Origin: Draconibacterium sediminis
Lineage (GTDB): Bacteria; Bacteroidota; Bacteroidia; Bacteroidales; Prolixibacteraceae
Length of the DNA: 64,000 nt
Assembly: GCF_000949475.1 (NCBI RefSeq)
Contig: NZ_JRHC01000003.1
Location: 124,001 to 188,000, forward strand
Direction: 5' to 3'
Shown: positions 25,840 through 58,273 of the stretch, piece by piece
Layout: each line of letters opens with the position of its first letter
Numbering within the stretch: the first letter of the stretch is position 1
Made by a program: the position numbers and the translations under genes
The notes under the pieces: generated by a model
The model's database searches: none
The model's input: the letters and a program-made list of their open reading frames with translations, nothing else
Told to the model about the DNA's origin: nothing

Positions 25840-26886
25840 TTACACTACCGTTATAAGTTTTTCCTGCTTTTCTGTTAATTGGCCGAATGGTGTAGCTGTG
25901 ATATTGAATTTAGCCAGGCAGGCTTCCACTTCCGAAAGCGCTTCGGGTTCAACAGCCAGTAACAACCCGCCACTGGTTTGCGGATCGCATAAAATGTTTT
26001 TGTAGCTGTCTTCTTTCATCGAAACATTATGCCCGTAACTATCCCAGTTGCGCAAGGTACCTCCCGGAATACAATTTTGTTCCACGTAGGGTTGAAGCAT
26101 GGGCAATGTCGGAATTTTATCATATTCAATTTGTGCCGAAAGCTTGCTGCCTTCGCACATTTCAGTGAGGTGGCCCAGCAAACCAAACCCGGTAACGTCG
26201 GTCATGGCTTTTACACCTTCTATTTTTGCAAGTTCAAAACCGGGTGTATTTAGCTGGCACATCAATTCAGGTGCAGTTTGTTCGTGTTCGCTTGCCAGAA
26301 CGCCTTTTTTCTGTGCAGTCGTTAAAATACCAACTCCCAGCGGTTTTGTAAGAAGCAACTGACAACCTTTAGTGGCTGTATCGTTTTGTTTTATGTTTTT
26401 CAGATCCACCTGTCCGGTAACTGCCAGGCCGAAAATCGGCTCAGGGCTGTCGATACTGTGTCCTCCGGCCAAACTTATTCCCACATCTTTACAAACCTGA
26501 CGACCGCCTTCAACCACTTCGCGGGCAATTTCAGGGGCCAGTTTGTTTATCGGCCAGCCCAAAATGGCAATGGCCAGTATTGGTTTCCCGCCCATGGCAA
26601 ATACATCGCTAATGGCGTTGGTGGCAGCTATACGACCGAAAGTAAAGGGATCGTCAACAATGGGCATAAAAAAGTCAGTGGTGCTGATAATGGCTGTACC
26701 GTTTCCTAAATCCAAAACGGCCGCATCATCGCGGCTATCGTTGCCCACCAAAAGATTGGGCTGAATTCCCATGTCGAGTTTAGTTTCAAGAATGGTACTT
26801 AAAACTTTAGGCGATATTTTGCAGCCGCAACCGGCTCCGTGGCTATACTGTGTGAGCTTTATATTTTTCGTATCTGACAGACTCAT
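25840..26886 (-). CDS. selD: Selenide, water dikinase
   Basis: The 348-residue enzyme makes selenophosphate from selenide and ATP. The N-terminal catalytic loop reads HGAGCGCK, with Cys20 at the catalytic position (TGC codons), so it is not a selenoprotein itself. The next Lys (K23), DDAAVLDLG and [23 protein letters not shown] for metal-ATP binding, and [16 protein letters not shown] follow the PurM/SelD family. The start ATG at 26886 is needed to include Cys20, so the gene overlaps the end of selU by 44 nt. It is the second gene of the selU-selD pair. Confidence 0.95.
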
Positions 26887-49402: not shown

Positions 49403-50281
49403 ATGAAAACAGAAGGATATTCAATAAAAGATTTGGAAACCTTATCGGGTATAAAGGCGCACACCATTCGAATTTGGGAGAAACGATATGATTTGCTAAA
49501 GCCTGAACGAACCGATACCAATATCAGGTATTACACTGATGACGATTTGAAACGCATGTTAAATGTTTCGTTATTGGTGCGCAATGGTTATAAAATCTCG
49601 AAAGTGGCTGCCTGGAAAGAAGCTGATATAAAACAAACCGTGCTTGATGTGGCCAAAACAAAAAAATCGGAAGAAGGTTATGTCGATCGGCTTTTACTTT
49701 TTATGGTAAATTTTGATAATGTTGGATTTACTGCGTTGGTAAACGAGATTATTGAAAAGTATGGGTTGGAAGAGGCCATGCAAAATATATTCTTCGCCTT
49801 GTTCGAACGCATTGGTACTTTCTGGCAGGTTGGTTCTATTTTTCCGGCACAGGAACATTACATTACTAGTTTTATCCGACAGAAGATAATTGCTGCGATA
49901 GATGCACACGGCATCACGAACTCAAAAGAAAAGACCATTCTGTTTTATCTTCCTGAAGAAGAATTACACGAACTGAGTTTGTTGTTTTATTCATACCTGG
50001 CTCTAAAGTTGGGGTACAACATTATTTATTTAGGACAGTTTGTACCATTTGCTGACCTGGAAAAGATTCAGTCTCACGTTGAATTGGATTTTATATTTAC
50101 AGCATTTATCAGCCCGATACAGAAGGAAAACCTGGAAAATTACCTTGAAAAATTGAAAGAATTATACCAACAGCAAAAAGTGTTTATAACCGGTTGGCAG
50201 GTAAAAGAACACGCACCAAAATTGCCTCGAAACTTTAAAGTGGTTAAAGATTACCGCGAATTTAAAAAGTATCTTGGTTAA
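49403..50281 (+). CDS. MerR-family regulator with CarH-like cobalamin-binding domain
   Basis: The 292-residue protein has a MerR winged helix (YSIKDLETLSGIKAHTIRIWEKRY; residues 6-29) and a C-terminal helical-bundle plus Rossmann region like CarH/LitR photoreceptors. The light-sensing signature W-x9-E-H is intact (W141, E151, H152). The lower-ligand motif reads E187-L-H189-E-L-S192 against the usual D/ExHxxG; the His is kept. CarH binds adenosylcobalamin and leaves DNA in light. No carotenoid genes are in the window, so its target is unknown; a B12-type radical SAM gene lies downstream on the other strand. Confidence 0.88.
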   Translation: MKTEGYSIKDLETLSGIKAHTIRIWEKRYDLLKPERTDTNIRYYTDDDLKRMLNVSLLVRNGYKISKVAAWKEADIKQTVLDVAKTKKSEEGYVDRLLLFMVNFDNVGFTALVNEIIEKYGLEEAMQNIFFALFERIGTFWQVGSIFPAQEHYITSFIRQKIIAAIDAHGITNSKEKTILFYLPEEELHELSLLFYSYLALKLGYNIIYLGQFVPFADLEKIQSHVELDFIFTAFISPIQKENLENYLEKLKELYQQQKVFITGWQVKEHAPKLPRNFKVVKDYREFKKYLG

Positions 50282-50760: not shown

Positions 50761-51771
50761 ATGAAATCCATGCATCGGGTTAGTACCATTCAGAAAGAGT
50801 TTTTTCAACTCGTAAAAGAAAAATTATCCCCGAATATCTCACTTGTTTTTGAAGTTTCCAGTTTGTTGGGCATTAGCCAGGACAGTGCTTACCGAAGAAT
50901 AAGGGGGGAGAAGGAGCTTACCCTTGAAGAGCTGTTTGTGCTGAAAGACTTTTTCAATATTTCGTTAGACCAGTTAAATGGAGAAGATTTATCGAGTGTA
51001 AATTTTAGTTGTTCGGTAATTCAACCTCAGAATTTCAGGGTAAGCGACTGGCTGGCGAAATTGTATGAGGACACCAAACGTATCCACGATTCCAAACAAC
51101 GGGAGCTTATATACGCGGCAAAAGATCCTCCGGTTTTTCATTATTTTCAGTTGCCGGAAATAGCCGCATTTAAAGTCTTTTTCTGGGAAAAAACACTTTT
51201 TCAGTTTCCTGAGTACAAAGAAAAGATGTTTTGTTTCGATGACATGGAAAATACGGCTTATGTGAATGGTAGAAAAGCACTGGCTTTAGCCTCTCAAATC
51301 CCGACCATTGAAATCTGGAACAATCATACCTTCACGATCATGCTTAGCCAGATTGAATTTTATTATGTCTCCGGTTTTTTCAAAAATAGGGACGACTTAC
51401 TAAACCTGCTTGATAAAATGGAGAAGTGGATTCATCATATCCAGAAAGAGGCTGAGTTAGGTTTTAAGTTCCTTTATGGCAGCGAACCCAATGGAGTGGA
51501 GAATAATTTCAGACTGTACTATAACGAGGTTGTATTAAATGACAATACCATACTTGTTCGTACTGACAGCGGATACAGCTCCTATCTTACTTTTAATGTA
51601 ATTAGCCTGCTAAATACCACCAACCAAAGTTTTTGTATTGAGTTGGATAAATATTTCCGAGGACTAATAACAAAATCAAACTTAATAAGCCACACCGGCG
51701 CCAAAGAGCGCAACCGCTTTTTTAACAGTCAGCTGCATGCTTTGGAACAAATGCGTTCGTCGCTTTCCTAA
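50761..51771 (+). CDS. Helix-turn-helix (BetR-like) transcriptional regulator
   Basis: The 336-residue protein has an N-terminal HTH with SSLLGISQDSAYRRIRGEKELTLEELFVLKDFFNISLDQL (residues 33-75), of the BetR/XRE-like kind often found in Bacteroidota. The rest (80-336) is a helical effector region with no recognised ligand motif. It lies convergent to the six-gene operon, ending 69 nt from the radical SAM stop, so it may or may not control that operon. Confidence 0.78.
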   Translation: MKSMHRVSTIQKEFFQLVKEKLSPNISLVFEVSSLLGISQDSAYRRIRGEKELTLEELFVLKDFFNISLDQLNGEDLSSVNFSCSVIQPQNFRVSDWLAKLYEDTKRIHDSKQRELIYAAKDPPVFHYFQLPEIAAFKVFFWEKTLFQFPEYKEKMFCFDDMENTAYVNGRKALALASQIPTIEIWNNHTFTIMLSQIEFYYVSGFFKNRDDLLNLLDKMEKWIHHIQKEAELGFKFLYGSEPNGVENNFRLYYNEVVLNDNTILVRTDSGYSSYLTFNVISLLNTTNQSFCIELDKYFRGLITKSNLISHTGAKERNRFFNSQLHALEQMRSSLS

Positions 51772-51840: not shown

Positions 51841-53208
51841 TTAGGAACTTTGCATTTCATAAACTTTCATCCGGGCATGATGCCGCTGAAAAATTGAAAT
51901 CTTTATCATCATTGCCGACAGGAATACAGCTCTGAACAAGCGTTTAAAAATATTACCTTTAAAATGTGCAGCGCTGATAAAACGCCACCACCGCCTGATG
52001 ATATTGCGCCATGAATAGAACTTTTTGTTGATGTTTTTGTAGGCGCTAAAAACCTGTTCTTTTGTAACCTTTTTGGGTTGAAATACTAAATGATCACCTT
52101 CGTAGTGCGCCAGGTTTTCATCCGTAATACGGCCTTCTTCCTTCACCAGTTTGTGAAATGGTGTTCCCGGAATCGGGATTGATATGGATAACAAGATAGA
52201 ACTCGGATCGATCTCTTCCAGCTTGTCGGGGAGTTTGTCGTAATATTCTTCCGTATCCTCGTCCAATGCGATCATCATTCCGGTGAAAGTTAAAATGCCT
52301 CGTTTTTTTAGTTTCATAAACAGCTCTTTGTATTCGGCCGTTTTGTTTTGCTTTTTATGAACAAAGGCCAGGCTGGGTTCATTTAATGATTCCAAACCGA
52401 TGAATGCCAAACCGCAATGCGCCTGTTCAAGCAAGTCGATAAATTCATCATCGTGCAGGCAGTCAAAACTAAATTGTACACCCAACGACCATAATTTCAG
52501 CTTTGCAATTTCGCGCAATAGGTTTTTGGCATACGCTAAATCGCCACCCAGGTTGTTGTCTTGCAGCATCGCTATCTTTCTTTTCAGAAGCGGAAGTTTT
52601 TGAGTACTACTTAAATCGTTCACCACGTCAGCAATCGGACGTTTGCGGTGTGGGGCCGGATTAATGTTCAACTGGCAATAGCTGCATTTGTATATACATC
52701 CGCGGGTTGCTTCGGTAACTACCGGCACTGTAAAGTCCTTCTCAATCAAATCGTAGCGTGGCGGAGGGATATTATCAAGCGGCGGTGCAAACGGTGCATA
52801 ATACAACTTTTTCAGGCGATTGTTTACCAGATCGTGCACCACAATCGGCCATATTTTTTCAGCTTCTCCAACAACGGTGGCATCCATGTAGTCTTCAATC
52901 TCTTCGGGATAAGTGGAGGCATAACGTCCTCCTGCGATTACTTTTTTCCCTTTTTCTCTGAATCTTTTGGCAACTTCTTTAGCATGAGCGGCGCAAAAAT
53001 CCATAAAACTAAGTGCTATATAATTGGCATCAGTTTCATAGTTGATAGGGCGGATCATTTCGTGCAACAGCTCTATCTCGACTATTGACGGAGTTAAGGC
53101 TGCCAGTAATGCTCCCGAAACAGGTGGAGCCGGCGATTTTGCGAAATAGGTTCGTTCGTCGCCCAGGTTCTGAAACAATACGATTATGAGCAGTTTTGGC
53201 TTTTTCAT
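51841..53208 (-). CDS. B12-binding-domain radical SAM protein
   Basis: The 455-residue protein has an N-terminal cobalamin-type Rossmann domain (residues 1-130; GGRYASTYPEEIEDYMDATVVGEAE) and a radical SAM domain with the cluster motif RGCIYKCSYC (C171, C175, C178). C-terminal helices (about 400-450) are basic and hydrophobic, so membrane contact is possible. Enzymes of this class often methylate unreactive carbons or make ring contractions in lipid, tetrapyrrole or antibiotic pathways. It is last in the six-gene operon, 4 nt after the SDR gene. Confidence 0.9.
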   Translation of the reverse strand: MKKPKLLIIVLFQNLGDERTYFAKSPAPPVSGALLAALTPSIVEIELLHEMIRPINYETDANYIALSFMDFCAAHAKEVAKRFREKGKKVIAGGRYASTYPEEIEDYMDATVVGEAEKIWPIVVHDLVNNRLKKLYYAPFAPPLDNIPPPRYDLIEKDFTVPVVTEATRGCIYKCSYCQLNINPAPHRKRPIADVVNDLSSTQKLPLLKRKIAMLQDNNLGGDLAYAKNLLREIAKLKLWSLGVQFSFDCLHDDEFIDLLEQAHCGLAFIGLESLNEPSLAFVHKKQNKTAEYKELFMKLKKRGILTFTGMMIALDEDTEEYYDKLPDKLEEIDPSSILLSISIPIPGTPFHKLVKEEGRITDENLAHYEGDHLVFQPKKVTKEQVFSAYKNINKKFYSWRNIIRRWWRFISAAHFKGNIFKRLFRAVFLSAMMIKISIFQRHHARMKVYEMQSS

Positions 53209-53212
53209 GACT

Positions 53213-54016
53213 TCAGGTTTTTAATAGTTTACCGGCTCTTTTACGAAAATAAGCCCTGACAAATCCCGGTGAAAGTGCAGCCACTTTCCCAATAAGTTTA
53301 CCACGAAGCGAGAGTGCAGCCTCTGGTTTGTTCCGTTTCATTTGCTGCACAATTTGGTGGGCAACATCTTCGGCTTTTGCCAGTTTATCGCGATATAAAC
53401 GGGCTCCCGGCAAGAACTTTTCGTTACGGAAGAAGCGGGTTTGGGTGTAATCGGGAGCTACATGTAAAACCGAAATTTTGGAATTATACAATTCGGCTCT
53501 TAAGGTTTGGCTGAACGACCTTAACGCAGCTTTACTGGCCGAGTAGGCAGCATAACATGGCATACCATAAAGCGCGGCGATTGACGATACAAATACGATC
53601 ATTCCACGACTATTTTCAGGGAAATAAGGAAGGGTATGGTACGTCAGGTTCACGGCGCCCATAAAATTGATATCCAGAATTTGTTTGAAATCCTGAGGTG
53701 TGGTATTTTTTATCGGACCGTAAACACCAATTCCTGCGTTATTAATCAGAATGTCAATTGCTTGCTTTTCGGGAGATAGTTGCTTTATCGCGTTTTTAAC
53801 CGCCTTTTCGCTCGAAATATCACAGCTTATAATAACTGGCTCAGATAGCTGTGGATTTGCCGAAACCACTTCGTTTCTAACCTGTTCCAAAGCTTCAAGA
53901 TTGCGGGCCATGAGAATCAGCCTGGGATTGTATTTTGCCAATTCAAAACAAAGTTGTTTCCCGATTCCGGATGAGGCACCGGAAATTATTATTCGTTTAT
54001 TTTTTAGTTCAAACAT
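53213..54016 (-). CDS. SDR family oxidoreductase, possible ketone reductase of a lipid pathway
   Basis: The 267-residue protein is a classical SDR: SGASSGIGK (12-20), NNAG (92-95), catalytic Ser144, Tyr158 and Lys162. Its C-terminus (LRGKLIGKVAALSPGFVRAYFRKRAGK) is basic and hydrophobic, as in membrane-bound lipid SDRs. In the operon it sits next to an alpha-oxoamine synthase. In sphingolipid and sulfonolipid pathways that enzyme makes a 3-keto lipid that an SDR reduces. That role is proposed here by context only. It overlaps nothing; gaps are 4 and 6 nt. Confidence 0.88.
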   Translation of the reverse strand: MFELKNKRIIISGASSGIGKQLCFELAKYNPRLILMARNLEALEQVRNEVVSANPQLSEPVIISCDISSEKAVKNAIKQLSPEKQAIDILINNAGIGVYGPIKNTTPQDFKQILDINFMGAVNLTYHTLPYFPENSRGMIVFVSSIAALYGMPCYAAYSASKAALRSFSQTLRAELYNSKISVLHVAPDYTQTRFFRNEKFLPGARLYRDKLAKAEDVAHQIVQQMKRNKPEAALSLRGKLIGKVAALSPGFVRAYFRKRAGKLLKT

Positions 54017-54022
54017 GATCGG

Positions 54023-54997
54023 TCAGATTTGCCCTTTTTCAGGTCGGAACAACAAAACCAGTTCGAAAACAAAGTAGTAGCACAAAGCAAACAAGTACCA
54101 GTCGGGTTGAAAAGTAACCGTAATTGCCAGATGCCACAAGATGAATGCCCTTACCGTAGAAACGATGGGGTAGGTGGCATTTTCTTCAGTTTTTACGGGA
54201 GTGAAGTGGGCTTTAACCTGCCCCGAAACAGCTACTAAAATGGCTATAATAAATAGTGCCAGCCCGATTGTGTTTGTGGCATCGATAAGGAAGAGTGAAG
54301 CGAGCGCAGTAATAAATACAAAAATGTCGCCCAGAACAACCGAGTGGTCCCAGCCAAATTTTACGGCGAAAGTATTGTAACCGGTTTCTCTGTCGGCAGA
54401 AATATCTTTTAAATAGCCGATCAGGACAAAATTCGCATAAGAAAAAAGGCTTATTACACACAGCCAAATGAGCTTGCTATTATTAAGCGATGCAAGGCCT
54501 TTTCCTGTAACTGCTAAAAAGGCCGTAATGGGTAAGATCATAACGATCCAGCCGTTGTAAAATGGCCCGGCTACCCAAAAATTCTTTTTAAAATAGGTGT
54601 AAGTGGCCAGTCCAAATATTGCCAGCGAACAAAATATCAGATTGTTGAGATTGTAGAATATCAGTGGAATTCCAATCAGAACCAATCCGGCCAAACTAAC
54701 ACCACCAAGCGCTTTTGGCGATACTTCTTTTTTTACCAAAGGCCGGTACGAGGCGGAAATGGCATCGGTGTCGGTTTGAAAACAATCGGTTAAAGCCTGA
54801 CCAAAACCGTAGCCCAAAAAGAACGGTAAAAACAAAATTACAAACCTGGTTATCGAGCTGCTTTCCCGCCAGCCCAATGCGAGCCCGGCCAATCCGGCTG
54901 CCCCGGAAACAAACAACAGGTAAGGCCGCATGTGGATAACAAGTGCTCTCAGAAAACGGAGGGATAGAACCGGTGCAAAGTTATTTTCATTTTTCAT
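54023..54997 (-). CDS. UbiA-family prenyltransferase-like membrane enzyme
   Basis: The 324-residue protein has about eight or nine membrane helices. The first Asp-rich motif reads TDCFQTDTDAISASYRPL (D71, D76, D78) and the second GYLKDISADRETGYNT (D198, D202), the two Mg-prenyl-diphosphate sites of the UbiA family. The motif is slightly altered from NDxxDxxxD. Substrates could be a polyprenyl or diacylglyceryl donor and a lipid or aromatic acceptor. ATG 54997 was chosen; the frame is open to 55066 inside the upstream gene. Confidence 0.88.
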   Translation of the reverse strand: MKNENNFAPVLSLRFLRALVIHMRPYLLFVSGAAGLAGLALGWRESSSITRFVILFLPFFLGYGFGQALTDCFQTDTDAISASYRPLVKKEVSPKALGGVSLAGLVLIGIPLIFYNLNNLIFCSLAIFGLATYTYFKKNFWVAGPFYNGWIVMILPITAFLAVTGKGLASLNNSKLIWLCVISLFSYANFVLIGYLKDISADRETGYNTFAVKFGWDHSVVLGDIFVFITALASLFLIDATNTIGLALFIIAILVAVSGQVKAHFTPVKTEENATYPIVSTVRAFILWHLAITVTFQPDWYLFALCYYFVFELVLLFRPEKGQI

Positions 54998-55007
54998 CGT
55001 AATCGTT

Positions 55008-55940
55008 TTAATCGGCAACAAATAAAGCTTTGGGTAACACAGAAAAGCGAAAACGACCAGCTTCAATAATTTCTCCGTCGGTTTCGAGAAGAACAGGCTT
55101 TGCAGAATTGATTTCTACGGACTGCACAAGAGCTGTTTTACAGTTCTTTGTTTTTGAGAATCGTTTTCGATATAATGCGTAAAGCAGCTTGGGAATTTGT
55201 TGTCTTTTAAAGTTCTCGGCCAGGTATAATCCTATACAGCCACTGTCGGCACCCGGATCAATATCGTAACAGAAACTACCTGAAACATTGGGGTTTTTAG
55301 CAATAGAAAGGTTAGTGACGCTGGTTGAAATCTGCTCTTCGTTATAAGCAATTTCCAAGTTAATATTTTGGTAAGTCCGCAGCGTTTGAATAATCGTCCA
55401 CAAAATAGCGATGCCGGTTGATCGCGGTTTCAGAAAACGAATAATTTTGTTGCTGTTGTCGTTAAAAAGTTGGTTCCCCAAAGCTGTAAAACCAAGGCTG
55501 GCATTAACGATAAAAAGCTGTTTTTTTGTTGTGTCGCTATCTGTAAACTCAACCAGCCCTAAATCAACCGGCTTTTTATTTTCAAAATCGATTTTCACCG
55601 GAATCCCGCTGATTTTGTGTTTTACAGGTTTAAGAAAATCGTTACTCGATCCCAGTCCAATGGCACCAATACTATAAGGTTCGAGTTGGTAATTTGTAAC
55701 CTCCGCAAGCGTATTGATGAGGTTGTTTATACTCCCATCCCCTCCTGCAGAAATAAAGTTCTTTACTTTATATTCGTTTATTAAAGTTTCCATCAGGCTG
55801 TTATGGTTATCGGTTTCCGAGAAATGGATATACAAAGTGCCAACAGGCATAATACTCTTCACATCATCCTCAATGTGATCCCATTTTTTCCCGGCCGATC
55901 CATTGTTGGCAAAACCATTTATCAATACCGCAGTTTTCAT
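55008..55940 (-). CDS. Diacylglycerol kinase-like lipid kinase
   Basis: The 310-residue protein has the DAGK catalytic motif SAGGDGSINNLIN (GGDGS residues 66-70), GLGSSNDFLK, and a DGE motif near the C-terminus (LLETDGEIIEAG). It has no membrane helix. Enzymes of this family phosphorylate diacylglycerol, sphingosine-like bases or undecaprenol. In this operon the likely acceptor is the operon's own lipid intermediate (inference). It starts 3 nt after the AOS gene stop. Confidence 0.88.
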   Translation of the reverse strand: MKTAVLINGFANNGSAGKKWDHIEDDVKSIMPVGTLYIHFSETDNHNSLMETLINEYKVKNFISAGGDGSINNLINTLAEVTNYQLEPYSIGAIGLGSSNDFLKPVKHKISGIPVKIDFENKKPVDLGLVEFTDSDTTKKQLFIVNASLGFTALGNQLFNDNSNKIIRFLKPRSTGIAILWTIIQTLRTYQNINLEIAYNEEQISTSVTNLSIAKNPNVSGSFCYDIDPGADSGCIGLYLAENFKRQQIPKLLYALYRKRFSKTKNCKTALVQSVEINSAKPVLLETDGEIIEAGRFRFSVLPKALFVAD

Positions 55941-55943
55941 GTT

Positions 55944-57236
55944 TTAATCGTTGCAAACTATATTGTGTTTATACCAAATCAGTTCTACGGTGTCAACCAG
56001 TTTTTTCAGGTCATCGTTGGTGTGGTTGGCACTTATCGAGATTCGAAATCGTTGTTTGTCAGCAGGCACAGCCGGAAACTCAATAGCATTTAAGAAGATT
56101 CCCTCGCGATTAAAATCGTTGGCCATTTTTCGAATGTTGGCATCTTGTGGAACATTTAAGGAAATGATTCCGGCTTGCGGAGGCGTTGTTATTCCAAAGG
56201 GTTTCAGCTTACGTGTTAAAAACGACACATTCTTTTTAAGTTGCACCCGTCGCCAGGGTTCATTTTCAATAACATCGATACCTGCCAGAACAGCGGCTAT
56301 GGTTACAGGCGGCAACGAGGCGGAAAACATATAGGTGCGCGCCATAAATCGCAGGAATTCGATCACCTCACGCGAACCGGAAATAAATCCACCATTTACC
56401 GCAAAGGCTTTGCTGAAGGTTCCCATAATTATTTCGTTGGTCCATTTTATCCGCAGTTCCTCCATAATTCCCTCGCCGTTAAAACCCAAAACGCCTGTTC
56501 CATGTGCATCGTCGATAATGGTGTGTGCATTATATTGTTGTGCCAGTGGAATTATTTGATCCAGGGGCGAAAGGTCGCCATCCATTGAGTACACTCCTTC
56601 AACTGCCACAAAAAGGTCGCCATCGGGTTTATGTGTTTTTAGTAAATCTTCCAATTGCCCGATGTTGTTGTGCCCGAAAGTGATACATTTCCCTCTTAAC
56701 AGTTTTACCCCATCGAAAAATGAAGCGTGGTTGTATTCGTCGGCCAATAGCAGATCGTGCGGTGTGCATAATCCGTAGAGCAATCCCAGGTTTGCGTTGT
56801 AACCGCTGGTAAATATCATGGTGTCTTCAGTTCCTTTTAATTGGCTCAGCCTGTTTTCCAGTTCTTTCATCAGCGATGAATAACCGTTAAGCAGTGGCGG
56901 TCCGGCAATACCCACTCCGTACTTTTTTATGGCTTTTTTTACCGTTTCTTTAATGTGCGGATGGTTGGCCAGCCCCAGGTAATTATTTGAACCGAACATC
57001 AACATTTCCTTCTTGTCTCCATCGGCATCAACAGCAATTACGGTGCGGTCGGTTGACGAATCGATTACCCGCATGTACAAATGCTTATCCGCTTCTTCCT
57101 GGTTTTGCAGGGAAACATGGAATAATTTAATTCGCTCATCCAATGGTAACTTTCTCCCATTCCTCCATGCACTGGAGAAATCAATACTGTACCCGTTGCC
57201 ACGTTTTTCTTCCTCGTTTTCAGATGTTGGTTTCAT
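55944..57236 (-). CDS. Alpha-oxoamine synthase (SPT/KBL/BioF-like PLP enzyme)
   Basis: The 430-residue PLP enzyme has FGSNNYLGLANHP (residues 81-93), EYNHASFFDG with the stacking His170, VEGVYSMDGD, IDDAHGTGVLG and the Schiff-base Lys276 in MGTFSKAFAV. AOS enzymes condense an amino acid with an acyl thioester and lose CO2. Similarity to Bacteroidota serine palmitoyltransferase is strong around the PLP site, but the substrate loop reads IAGPPLLNG instead of the usual xxSR-type loop. Serine, glycine or cysteate are all possible. It overlaps the ThiL-like gene by 17 nt. Confidence 0.9.
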   Translation of the reverse strand: MKPTSENEEEKRGNGYSIDFSSAWRNGRKLPLDERIKLFHVSLQNQEEADKHLYMRVIDSSTDRTVIAVDADGDKKEMLMFGSNNYLGLANHPHIKETVKKAIKKYGVGIAGPPLLNGYSSLMKELENRLSQLKGTEDTMIFTSGYNANLGLLYGLCTPHDLLLADEYNHASFFDGVKLLRGKCITFGHNNIGQLEDLLKTHKPDGDLFVAVEGVYSMDGDLSPLDQIIPLAQQYNAHTIIDDAHGTGVLGFNGEGIMEELRIKWTNEIIMGTFSKAFAVNGGFISGSREVIEFLRFMARTYMFSASLPPVTIAAVLAGIDVIENEPWRRVQLKKNVSFLTRKLKPFGITTPPQAGIISLNVPQDANIRKMANDFNREGIFLNAIEFPAVPADKQRFRISISANHTNDDLKKLVDTVELIWYKHNIVCND

Positions 57237-58215
57237 GACCTTTTAGGTATTTTGTTAATGCAGATATGTATTCCTGAGGTTCGGAAAAATCCCGTCCTCC
57301 AATATTAAAATCGCCCAAGTCGTAAAGTTTTGAATCCGATAAGAGCATTCTCTTTTCTTTCTGTATTGTCCCTATTTTGGTGAAATACAGCTCTCTGCTT
57401 TCCGCTTCCGCTAAAAAGCTTTCTTCATCTTCAGGTTTAATGGTAAATACAAGTTCATATTCACCACATTCGCCCAAAAACAATAATTCTTCCGGTAGTT
57501 TTAGTTGGGTCATAAAAGCACTGGCAATAGGATCGGAATTTAAGCGGTCGATCAAAAAACCGGTGTTGTTCAGCGAGGAAATAGTTCGAAGCGCGTTTCC
57601 AATTCCATCGCTGGAGTCGATACAGGTTGTGGCAAATTCCTTTATTAACCCGGCCTCTTTATGTCTTAGTTCAAATTGAGTAGAAATATTACTATCGATA
57701 TTAAAAAGTTGTAAAGCGGCTTCAAAGTTGCCTGTACCACAATTTCCTGTCATGTAAATAAGCTCGCCGGGAGCTGTTCTTTTTCGCATCAGCGGTTTAT
57801 CCGAATAACCGATTGCAATTCCGGTGTAGTGCCATTCTTCCGAGGTTCCCAGGTCGCCACCGATAAATGCCGCACCTGTTTCCACGAGAATTTCTGCTAC
57901 ACCACTCGCTAATTCAACCAGGTACGAATGATCCCATTTTTCGGGATTTAATGCAACAGAGTGACTGAAATACTGAGGGGCACCTCCCGAAGCTAAAATA
58001 TCGCTCAGGGTGGCCACCGCCAGGTTTTTACCCAATTGAAAAGGATTGGTGGTGCGAAAATGATCTTCTTTTGAAAAATCGTCAACCGAAAAAAGTAAAT
58101 AACCGTTCTTCTTTTTCAGGATTTCTGCGTCGGATTCAAAAAGATCATTAAGCTGTTTTTTGCTGCGAGGAAGTTGATCCGAGAGGAGAGAGATGATATT
58201 TTCTTCCAGGTTCAT
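57220..58215 (-). CDS. ThiL-like (AIR-synthase/thiamine-phosphate kinase family) protein
   Basis: The 331-residue protein has the ThiL family blocks: SVDDFSKEDHF (Mg-binding), NLAVATLSDILASGGAPQYF, FIGGDLGTSEEW, TTCIDSSDGIGNALR and GEYELVFTI. The usual N-terminal GDDAA loop is replaced by FESDAEILKK, so the true substrate may not be thiamine monophosphate. No other thiamine gene is near. As first gene of a lipid-type operon it is a candidate ATP-dependent kinase for a pathway intermediate. A promoter lies at 58241-58273. Confidence 0.82.
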   Translation of the reverse strand: MNLEENIISLLSDQLPRSKKQLNDLFESDAEILKKKNGYLLFSVDDFSKEDHFRTTNPFQLGKNLAVATLSDILASGGAPQYFSHSVALNPEKWDHSYLVELASGVAEILVETGAAFIGGDLGTSEEWHYTGIAIGYSDKPLMRKRTAPGELIYMTGNCGTGNFEAALQLFNIDSNISTQFELRHKEAGLIKEFATTCIDSSDGIGNALRTISSLNNTGFLIDRLNSDPIASAFMTQLKLPEELLFLGECGEYELVFTIKPEDEESFLAEAESRELYFTKIGTIQKEKRMLLSDSKLYDLGDFNIGGRDFSEPQEYISALTKYLKGHETNI

Positions 58216-58240
58216 CGGGCCGTACTTTTGGTTTTCTATT

Positions 58241-58273
58241 CAAAGATACGACACCGGGAGTATGGAAAACAAT
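58241..58273 (-). promoter_or_regulatory. Promoter of the six-gene operon
   Basis: On the minus strand ATTG (58273-58270), 21 nt, TATCTTTG (58248-58241). The -7 box is a full match to TAnnTTTG and the -33 matches at three of four positions. The start site would be near 58235, giving a leader of about 20 nt. Confidence 0.65.

Follow-up and report, generated by a model that had tools for sequence, protein, structure and literature searches.

A conserved operon around a divergent UbiA-type transferase in Draconibacterium sediminis, possibly specifying a phosphorylated amino-alcohol lipid

In Caulobacter, phosphosphingolipid synthesis (spt, a dehydrogenase gene, AasR/AcpR and CC_1160) brings together an alpha-oxoamine synthase (AOS), a reductase, an acyl-activating enzyme and a lipid kinase in one region, in which CC_1160 is reported, on the strength of an enzyme assay, to be a ceramide kinase (PMC11324152). 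An AOS-type condensing enzyme, the SulA-type cysteate fatty acyltransferase, also serves sulfonolipid (capnine) synthesis in Bacteroidota (PMC9304779), and enzymes of the type of digeranylgeranylglyceryl phosphate (DGGGP) synthase, a known case of a UbiA enzyme that takes a lipid phosphate as substrate, have been reported in bacteria of the Fibrobacterota–Chlorobiota–Bacteroidota (FCB) group (PMC7852524). Here we describe a six-gene operon of Draconibacterium sediminis that resembles each of these systems in part, and which lies in a 64,000-nt stretch of contig NZ_JRHC01000003.1 (positions 124,001 to 188,000 of the forward strand; hereafter the window). Like the Caulobacter region, it combines an AOS, a reductase and a lipid kinase, and some related loci include an acyl ligase, but these loci add a UbiA-superfamily transferase, a ThiL-like kinase and either a B12-type radical S-adenosylmethionine (SAM) enzyme or a DUF3419/GNAT pair, and the window AOS belongs to another clade. 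We give roughly even odds (a probability of about 0.5) to the reading that the operon represents a conserved and so far undescribed route to a phosphorylated amino-alcohol lipid.

An earlier note on this DNA had placed six genes on one strand at 51841–58273, and the list of open reading frames (ORFs), Pfam and NCBIfam scans and a recount of the distances bore out their coordinates, shared (minus) strand, superfamilies and spacings (Table 1). The proteins belong to the AIRS/ThiL, class I/II aminotransferase-fold (AOS), DAGK/YegS (diacylglycerol kinase), UbiA, short-chain dehydrogenase/reductase (SDR) and radical SAM superfamilies, the last with a weak match to the B12-binding domain. Intergenic distances are −17, 3, 10, 6 and 4 nt with the UbiA start at the ATG at 54997, which was used instead of the TTG of the mechanical ORF call. 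Scripted ORF picking found the gene order kept in three same-genus genomes, where the last four spacings are identical, and also in L017 and L018, Bacteroidota loci at a greater distance, where the spacings are similar.

Related loci were collected with UbiA alone as bait, and genomes without UbiA are therefore unrepresented. The query matched 4 of 61 relatives (89–100% identity), all four among the 37 genomes of one genus (the window's own included), and 1 of 395 sampled genomes of the class, namely the window's own. A UbiA-baited scan of species genomes gave 53 loci (39–91% identity), assigned by record title to Draconibacterium, other Bacteroidota, Ignavibacteria, Eisenbacteria, WOR-3, Aminicenantes, Zixibacteria, Acidobacteriota and a few others, while a scan of viral contigs with the same query found no relative. 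Two clusters, in a Williamsia metagenome-assembled genome (MAG) and a Desulfofustis MAG (L028 and L019), group with those of Bacteroidota, which may reflect misbinning or transfer. After de-duplication (L016 was dropped as a duplicate of L013), 55 UbiA loci were retained; many are MAG contigs with short flanks, so that all gene counts are lower bounds. The YegS/DAGK-type kinase adjoined UbiA in 53 of the 55, the two misses (L043 and L068) being contig ends. The ThiL-like gene was found in 45, the AOS in 38 (with the window AOS as sole query), the radical SAM gene in 21 and the SDR in 18, a count that includes the rows of L048, which lies on the opposite strand, and L022, which may be unrelated; acyl-CoA ligase, GNAT and DUF3419 genes occurred in 10, 10 and 9 loci, respectively. 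The full six-gene set is present in a minority of loci. Because of these counts and of the separated radical SAM genes described below, the most constant core is UbiA with the DAGK-type and ThiL-like kinases, and AOS, SDR and radical SAM are frequent partners. Non-conservation of the gene set, named beforehand as a refuting result, was looked for and not found: the genes are conserved together across phyla. The earlier note had, however, missed this core, the exchange of radical SAM for a DUF3419/GNAT pair, and a seventh gene at 50761–51771.

From sequence, a lipid product appears likely. The reading as a phosphorylated amino-alcohol lipid is proposed because the kinases, AOS and radical SAM genes recur near UbiA at the frequencies given above; because all 18 triad genomes outside the genus encode an AOS, with an SPT-like enzyme elsewhere in the eight that lack one in the operon; because acyl-CoA ligase, DUF3419, and cytochrome P450 plus desaturase occur as partners and the UbiA enzyme is near DGGGP synthase; and because separated radical SAM genes adjoin SDR, AOS or ThiL-like genes. 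In such a pathway, the AOS would form a 3-keto long-chain base by condensation of an amino acid and an acyl thioester, and the SDR would reduce its ketone. The YegS/DAGK-type kinase would phosphorylate the hydroxyl, a step like that of the ceramide kinase in the phosphosphingolipid pathway of Caulobacter, and the UbiA enzyme could then attach to the phospholipid another group, probably an isoprenoid, that comes from a diphosphate. The ThiL-like kinase would most likely supply or recharge a diphosphate, ThiL itself being an enzyme that converts a monophosphate to a diphosphate. The radical SAM enzyme may make a final carbon-centred change, a place that would be taken elsewhere by a DUF3419 (BtaA-like) transferase and a GNAT acyltransferase. 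The data show the gene set and its conservation, the clades, the folds, the altered motifs and the exchange of modules; we infer the substrates, the order of these steps and the membrane-lipid nature of the product.

AOS enzymes bind pyridoxal phosphate (PLP) through a lysine and the substrate carboxylate through an arginine. In a 60-row tree, the window AOS fell in a 20-member clade of its own (type 1; SH-aLRT 100), apart from the rows of serine palmitoyltransferase (SPT), 2-amino-3-ketobutyrate CoA ligase (KBL) and SulA type. The PLP lysine is kept in 20/20 type 1 rows and the carboxylate arginine in 19/20, the remaining row being truncated, which by sequence places the window protein in the AOS superfamily. 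The tree, made like the others here by a quick method, took 33 of the 38 cluster AOS (L035, L043, L049, L053 and L056, too short or poorly excised, were omitted), and its references were four SPT rows selected by cut-off, four KBL rows of one genus and one SulA-type row on a long branch, with no certified BioF row. The altered substrate loop noticed earlier (PPLLNG) is present as GPP[LIV]LNG: its proline (Pro114) occurs in 20/20 type 1 rows, and arginine stands there in 38 of 40 other AOS rows (of which L100 duplicates L041, and three from Dyadobacter are almost identical). The window AOS also scored below every NCBIfam AOS cut-off (bioF TIGR00858, 365.4 vs 426 bits; SPT NF047600, 337.8 vs 640; KBL, 272.8 vs 493). 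Tight clustering with SPT or KBL, the other refuting result named in advance, was looked for and not found, and a plain SPT, KBL or SulA-type role is unsupported by scores and tree.

These results bear on another alternative, namely that the genes serve ordinary synthesis of sphingolipids or sulfonolipids, with some additions. An AOS, a reductase and a lipid kinase do form the general layout of bacterial phosphosphingolipid loci (PMC11324152). The window AOS, however, lies outside the SPT and SulA-type rows and below the SPT cut-off, and the genome already has a separate SulA-type AOS, from which that of the operon is far removed: of its two other AOS found at E 1e-30 or better, one is a KBL above cut-off and the other matches cysteate fatty acyltransferase 28eh at 5e-175. 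The SPT model gave no match in the window genome at E 1e-110. UbiA and ThiL-like enzymes, moreover, are not known to be part of either pathway. We consider this explanation improbable. The SulA-type AOS of the window genome (L148:1247-2509) matches cysteate fatty acyltransferase (7u7h, 28eh), which suggests that the organism also makes sulfonolipids; 11/11 same-genus genomes match over the same query stretch, with a frame of 423–424 aa, although only the L148 copy was identified. Seven same-genus genomes without the operon had two AOS matches each, with three in G007, where the extra one (L110) carries proline in the substrate loop (ASPVIGG) and is about 43% identical to an SPT row.

Outside the genus, an AOS of type 1, of type 2 or of the SPT-like kind is encoded in 18/18 triad genomes. 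Most Eisenbacteria and WOR-3 loci have enzymes of the type 2 clade, in which 15 of 16 rows fall together (L065 falls elsewhere), and which is nearer the SPT model (456–474 bits in the three scanned), still below its cut-off. All eight genomes without an operon AOS (four Dyadobacter and those of L032, L048, L057 and L059, the L048 contig ending early) have an AOS elsewhere that is 51–72% identical to SPT or SPT-like rows. This pattern is consistent with supply of a long-chain base but not decisive, because SPT-like genes occur widely across the phylum in any case (86 of 118 sampled). As to the SDR, its nearest NCBIfam model is PRK06181 (196.9 vs 215 bits), and it scored far below the cut-off of the 3-ketodihydrosphingosine reductase model (117 vs 400).

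The transferase belongs to the UbiA superfamily by its Pfam match, fold and two Asp-rich motifs, and its closest relative, both by sequence profile (best solved relative) and by Foldseek, is the archaeal lipid prenyltransferase DGGGP synthase. The polyprenylated product proposed in the earlier note fits this kinship, although its prenyl donor is, like every substrate of the pathway, one that we infer. By contrast with the archaeal and FCB enzymes of ether lipid synthesis, the protein has an AOS and kinases as partners, scores far below the DGGGP synthase family cut-off (48 vs 353 bits), and has Gln for the middle Asp of the first metal motif (NDxxDxxxD) in 55/55 rows. This replacement hints at an unusual donor.

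The DAGK-type kinase exceeded the Pfam DAGK_cat cut-off (39 vs 23.6 bits), fell below that of the NCBIfam YegS/BmrU subfamily (58 vs 119 bits) and has the features of a YegS/DAGK lipid kinase, with GGDG (G66-G67-D68-G69) and E-x-DGE motifs invariant in 37 aligned rows and a profile matching DgkB, YegS and, weakly, sphingosine kinase 1. The ThiL-like protein scored 127 bits against a ThiL cut-off of 184. Its predicted fold is closest to ThiL, including the complex with adenosine diphosphate and thiamine diphosphate (ADP/TPP), and together with conserved Asp residues identifies an ATP-dependent kinase of the ThiL (PurM) type; structures were predicted for subsets of 40 UbiA and 34 ThiL-like rows. 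The GDDAA loop of ThiL, described earlier as lost, has instead given way to x-D-x-E, where 42/42 rows share one Asp and a new Glu, the other aligned Asp residues being kept (the comparison with ThiL rests on L157 and L162). Since a genuine ThiL is encoded elsewhere in the window genome, a plain thiamine role, against which the earlier note had argued from the loop, was rejected. Another AIR-synthase/ThiL-domain protein lies at 26080–26736 of the window (70.7 bits to TIGR01379, below cut-off).

The two kinases could alternatively act in relay on one alcohol, the DAGK-type enzyme making the monophosphate and the ThiL-like enzyme the diphosphate, which UbiA would then use as its donor. Tocopherol synthesis offers a parallel, with phytol kinase, phytyl-phosphate kinase and homogentisate phytyltransferase. 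The constancy of the three-gene core, the ThiL-like fold and the Gln of the UbiA motif agree with such a relay, as does the absence of a prenyl synthase near any of 56 loci, searched with the genome's own three family members, so that distant ones would be missed. This absence favours a kinase-made diphosphate, yet is also expected if geranylgeranyl diphosphate comes from those three, which are housekeeping enzymes and would leave no need for one in the operon. Moreover, a relay alone leaves AOS, SDR and radical SAM unexplained, and a plain long-chain base diphosphate would not ionise readily, as UbiA donors usually must. We therefore regard a relay as rather unlikely. A bolder proposal, doubtful in our view, would be a new class of membrane lipid found in many phyla of and near the FCB group, in which two kinases would convert an amino alcohol to a diphosphate, UbiA would couple this non-isoprenoid diphosphate, and the head group would be set by an exchangeable radical SAM or aminocarboxypropyl module.

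The radical SAM protein contains CxxxCxxC, its B12-binding domain scored 22.4 bits against a cut-off of 32.1, and it is very strongly conserved (56–95% identity to 17 other aligned members). Methylase, the designation in the earlier note, is one of several candidate functions: the nearest NCBIfam models mix methylases with cyclases and ring-formers, all far below cut-off. A close relative (56–69%) was found elsewhere in 6 of the 23 triad genomes that lack one near UbiA. All six of these separated genes (L150–L155) adjoin an SDR, AOS or ThiL-like gene of the same families; several seem to be the remaining half of an operon that a contig end has split, whereas L150, on a closed Aminicenantes chromosome and far from UbiA, is truly separate. 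Where both flanks of UbiA measured 5 kb or more (31 loci), 18 had the radical SAM gene, 7 the DUF3419/GNAT pair, 6 neither and none both, an exclusion with a hypergeometric value of 0.00065 (which ignores kinship). Three label changes are needed on the UbiA tree, and well-supported branches force at least two module switches: L031 falls in the WOR-3/Aminicenantes part, and a group of Dyadobacter, Lunatimonas and Chitinophagaceae adjoins Prolixibacteraceae. The radical SAM gene is thus exchanged for the DUF3419/GNAT pair in some lineages. DUF3419 is the Pfam name matched in the module, and is the family to which BtaA of betaine-lipid synthesis belongs. In a Chitinophagaceae MAG (L025), genes for a P450 and a fatty-acid desaturase lie inside the run, between GNAT and DAGK (L025:6657-9060).

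Several observations weigh against a phosphorylated amino-alcohol lipid. The SDR and radical SAM genes were found in just 18 and 21 of the 55 loci; no close radical SAM relative was detected in 17 of the 23 triad genomes lacking one near UbiA; and the want of a local prenyl synthase and the frequency of SPT-like genes count here too. Ordinary sphingolipid chemistry does not call for a ThiL-like kinase, whose role is the weakest link of the proposal, and the likeness to CC_1160 is one of reported activity and gene region. Furthermore, type 1 AOS group nearer KBL, on a branch drawn open in the quick tree, bioF is the best-scoring model for the window AOS, and an R-x-R motif near the carboxyl end, present in KBL rows and absent from SPT rows, occurs in 18/20 type 1 rows (the first Arg is Cys in L096, and the L054 row is truncated at this point). 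Because of these three features, a short acyl substrate is conceivable for the type 1 AOS. The product might then be a small secondary metabolite or signal, a UbiA-prenylated short-acyl compound, which the patchy distribution (4/37 same-genus and 1/395 sampled class genomes, the latter its own) would also suit. We consider this unlikely, as an SPT-like AOS seems to stand in elsewhere, and as lipids are suggested both by the YegS/DAGK-type kinase and by the partners acyl ligase, desaturase and DUF3419.

The open-licence PMC literature (preprints not covered) yielded no account of this gene set and nothing useful on Draconibacterium polar lipids; the set is widespread and seemingly undescribed. 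Ubi-297 (PMC9235831) was set apart by its description: a conserved operon is mentioned, but aminotransferase, oxoamine, short-chain and radical SAM are absent from its text. The lipocone UbiA neighbourhood differs in its partners (PMC12419801). A six-gene cluster is also described from eustigmatophyte plastids (PMC5133447), and a paper on Black Sea sphingolipids (PMC11334938) served as context only. If the phosphorylated amino-alcohol lipid is real, it would be a lipid family of distinct chemistry in many bacterial phyla, most of them uncultured, and give a genetic handle on orphan sediment lipids and unidentified aminolipids. A long-chain-base pathway would have recruited a UbiA enzyme, linking sphingolipid-like and isoprenoid-lipid chemistry. 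Named strains carry the gene set (Draconibacterium mangrovi and, in the DUF3419 version, Dyadobacter fermentans, Dyadobacter jiangsuensis and Lunatimonas salinarum), and the pathway is therefore directly testable.

Table 1. Features of the operon and its surroundings (window coordinates unless a locus is named).
Feature	Coordinates	Strand	Family matches
ThiL-like (PurM/AIRS fold) ATP-dependent kinase, first gene	57220..58215	-	
AOS, type 1 clade, GPP[LIV]LNG loop, PLP-dependent	55944..57236	-	PF00155
YegS/DAGK-family lipid kinase	55008..55940	-	PF00781 and PF19279 above cut-off
Divergent UbiA-superfamily membrane transferase, first motif TDxxQxDxD	54023..54997	-	
SDR, probable 3-keto reductase	53213..54016	-	PF00106
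Radical SAM enzyme, B12-binding-like N-terminal domain	51841..53208	-	PF04055 above cut-off, B12-binding below cut-off
Convergent seventh gene, probable helix-turn-helix regulator (by eye)	50761..51771	+	no Pfam/NCBIfam match
Bacteroidota-type promoter-like site, TTG-N-TATCTTTG	58241..58273 (pattern 58272 to about 58241)	-	
Small protein copies	L150:10749-11249; L024:4282-4728; L057:12987-13319; L055:9507-9917		no family match

The convergent seventh gene occurs, at 95–100%, in 4 of 37 same-genus genomes, precisely those with both UbiA and the radical SAM gene. A relative (65%) lies beside the operon in L017, and G040, a genome from another family that lacks the operon, gave one 32% match. Its N-terminal part is a probable helix-turn-helix, judged by eye. 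The single good promoter claimed upstream of the first gene matches a Bacteroidota-type consensus, but the window contains 10 copies of the pattern, and 20 mononucleotide shuffles gave a mean of 9.55; it is not rarer than chance window-wide, and its sole support is its position just upstream of the first gene.

At 49403–50281, the window encodes a MerR-family regulator with a B12-binding domain (CarH-like, 94 vs 400 bits), found beside the operon in same-genus loci only. In an Aminicenantes genome, porin-like, LolA-like and MMPL-like genes (L150:3693-8537; names given by eye) diverge from the SDR–radical SAM pair; tblastn with the MMPL-like and LolA-like genes gave no match in other loci that would make them general partners. 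A small protein (about 166 aa) without a family match, membrane-like by eye, is encoded near the cluster in four loci (Table 1).

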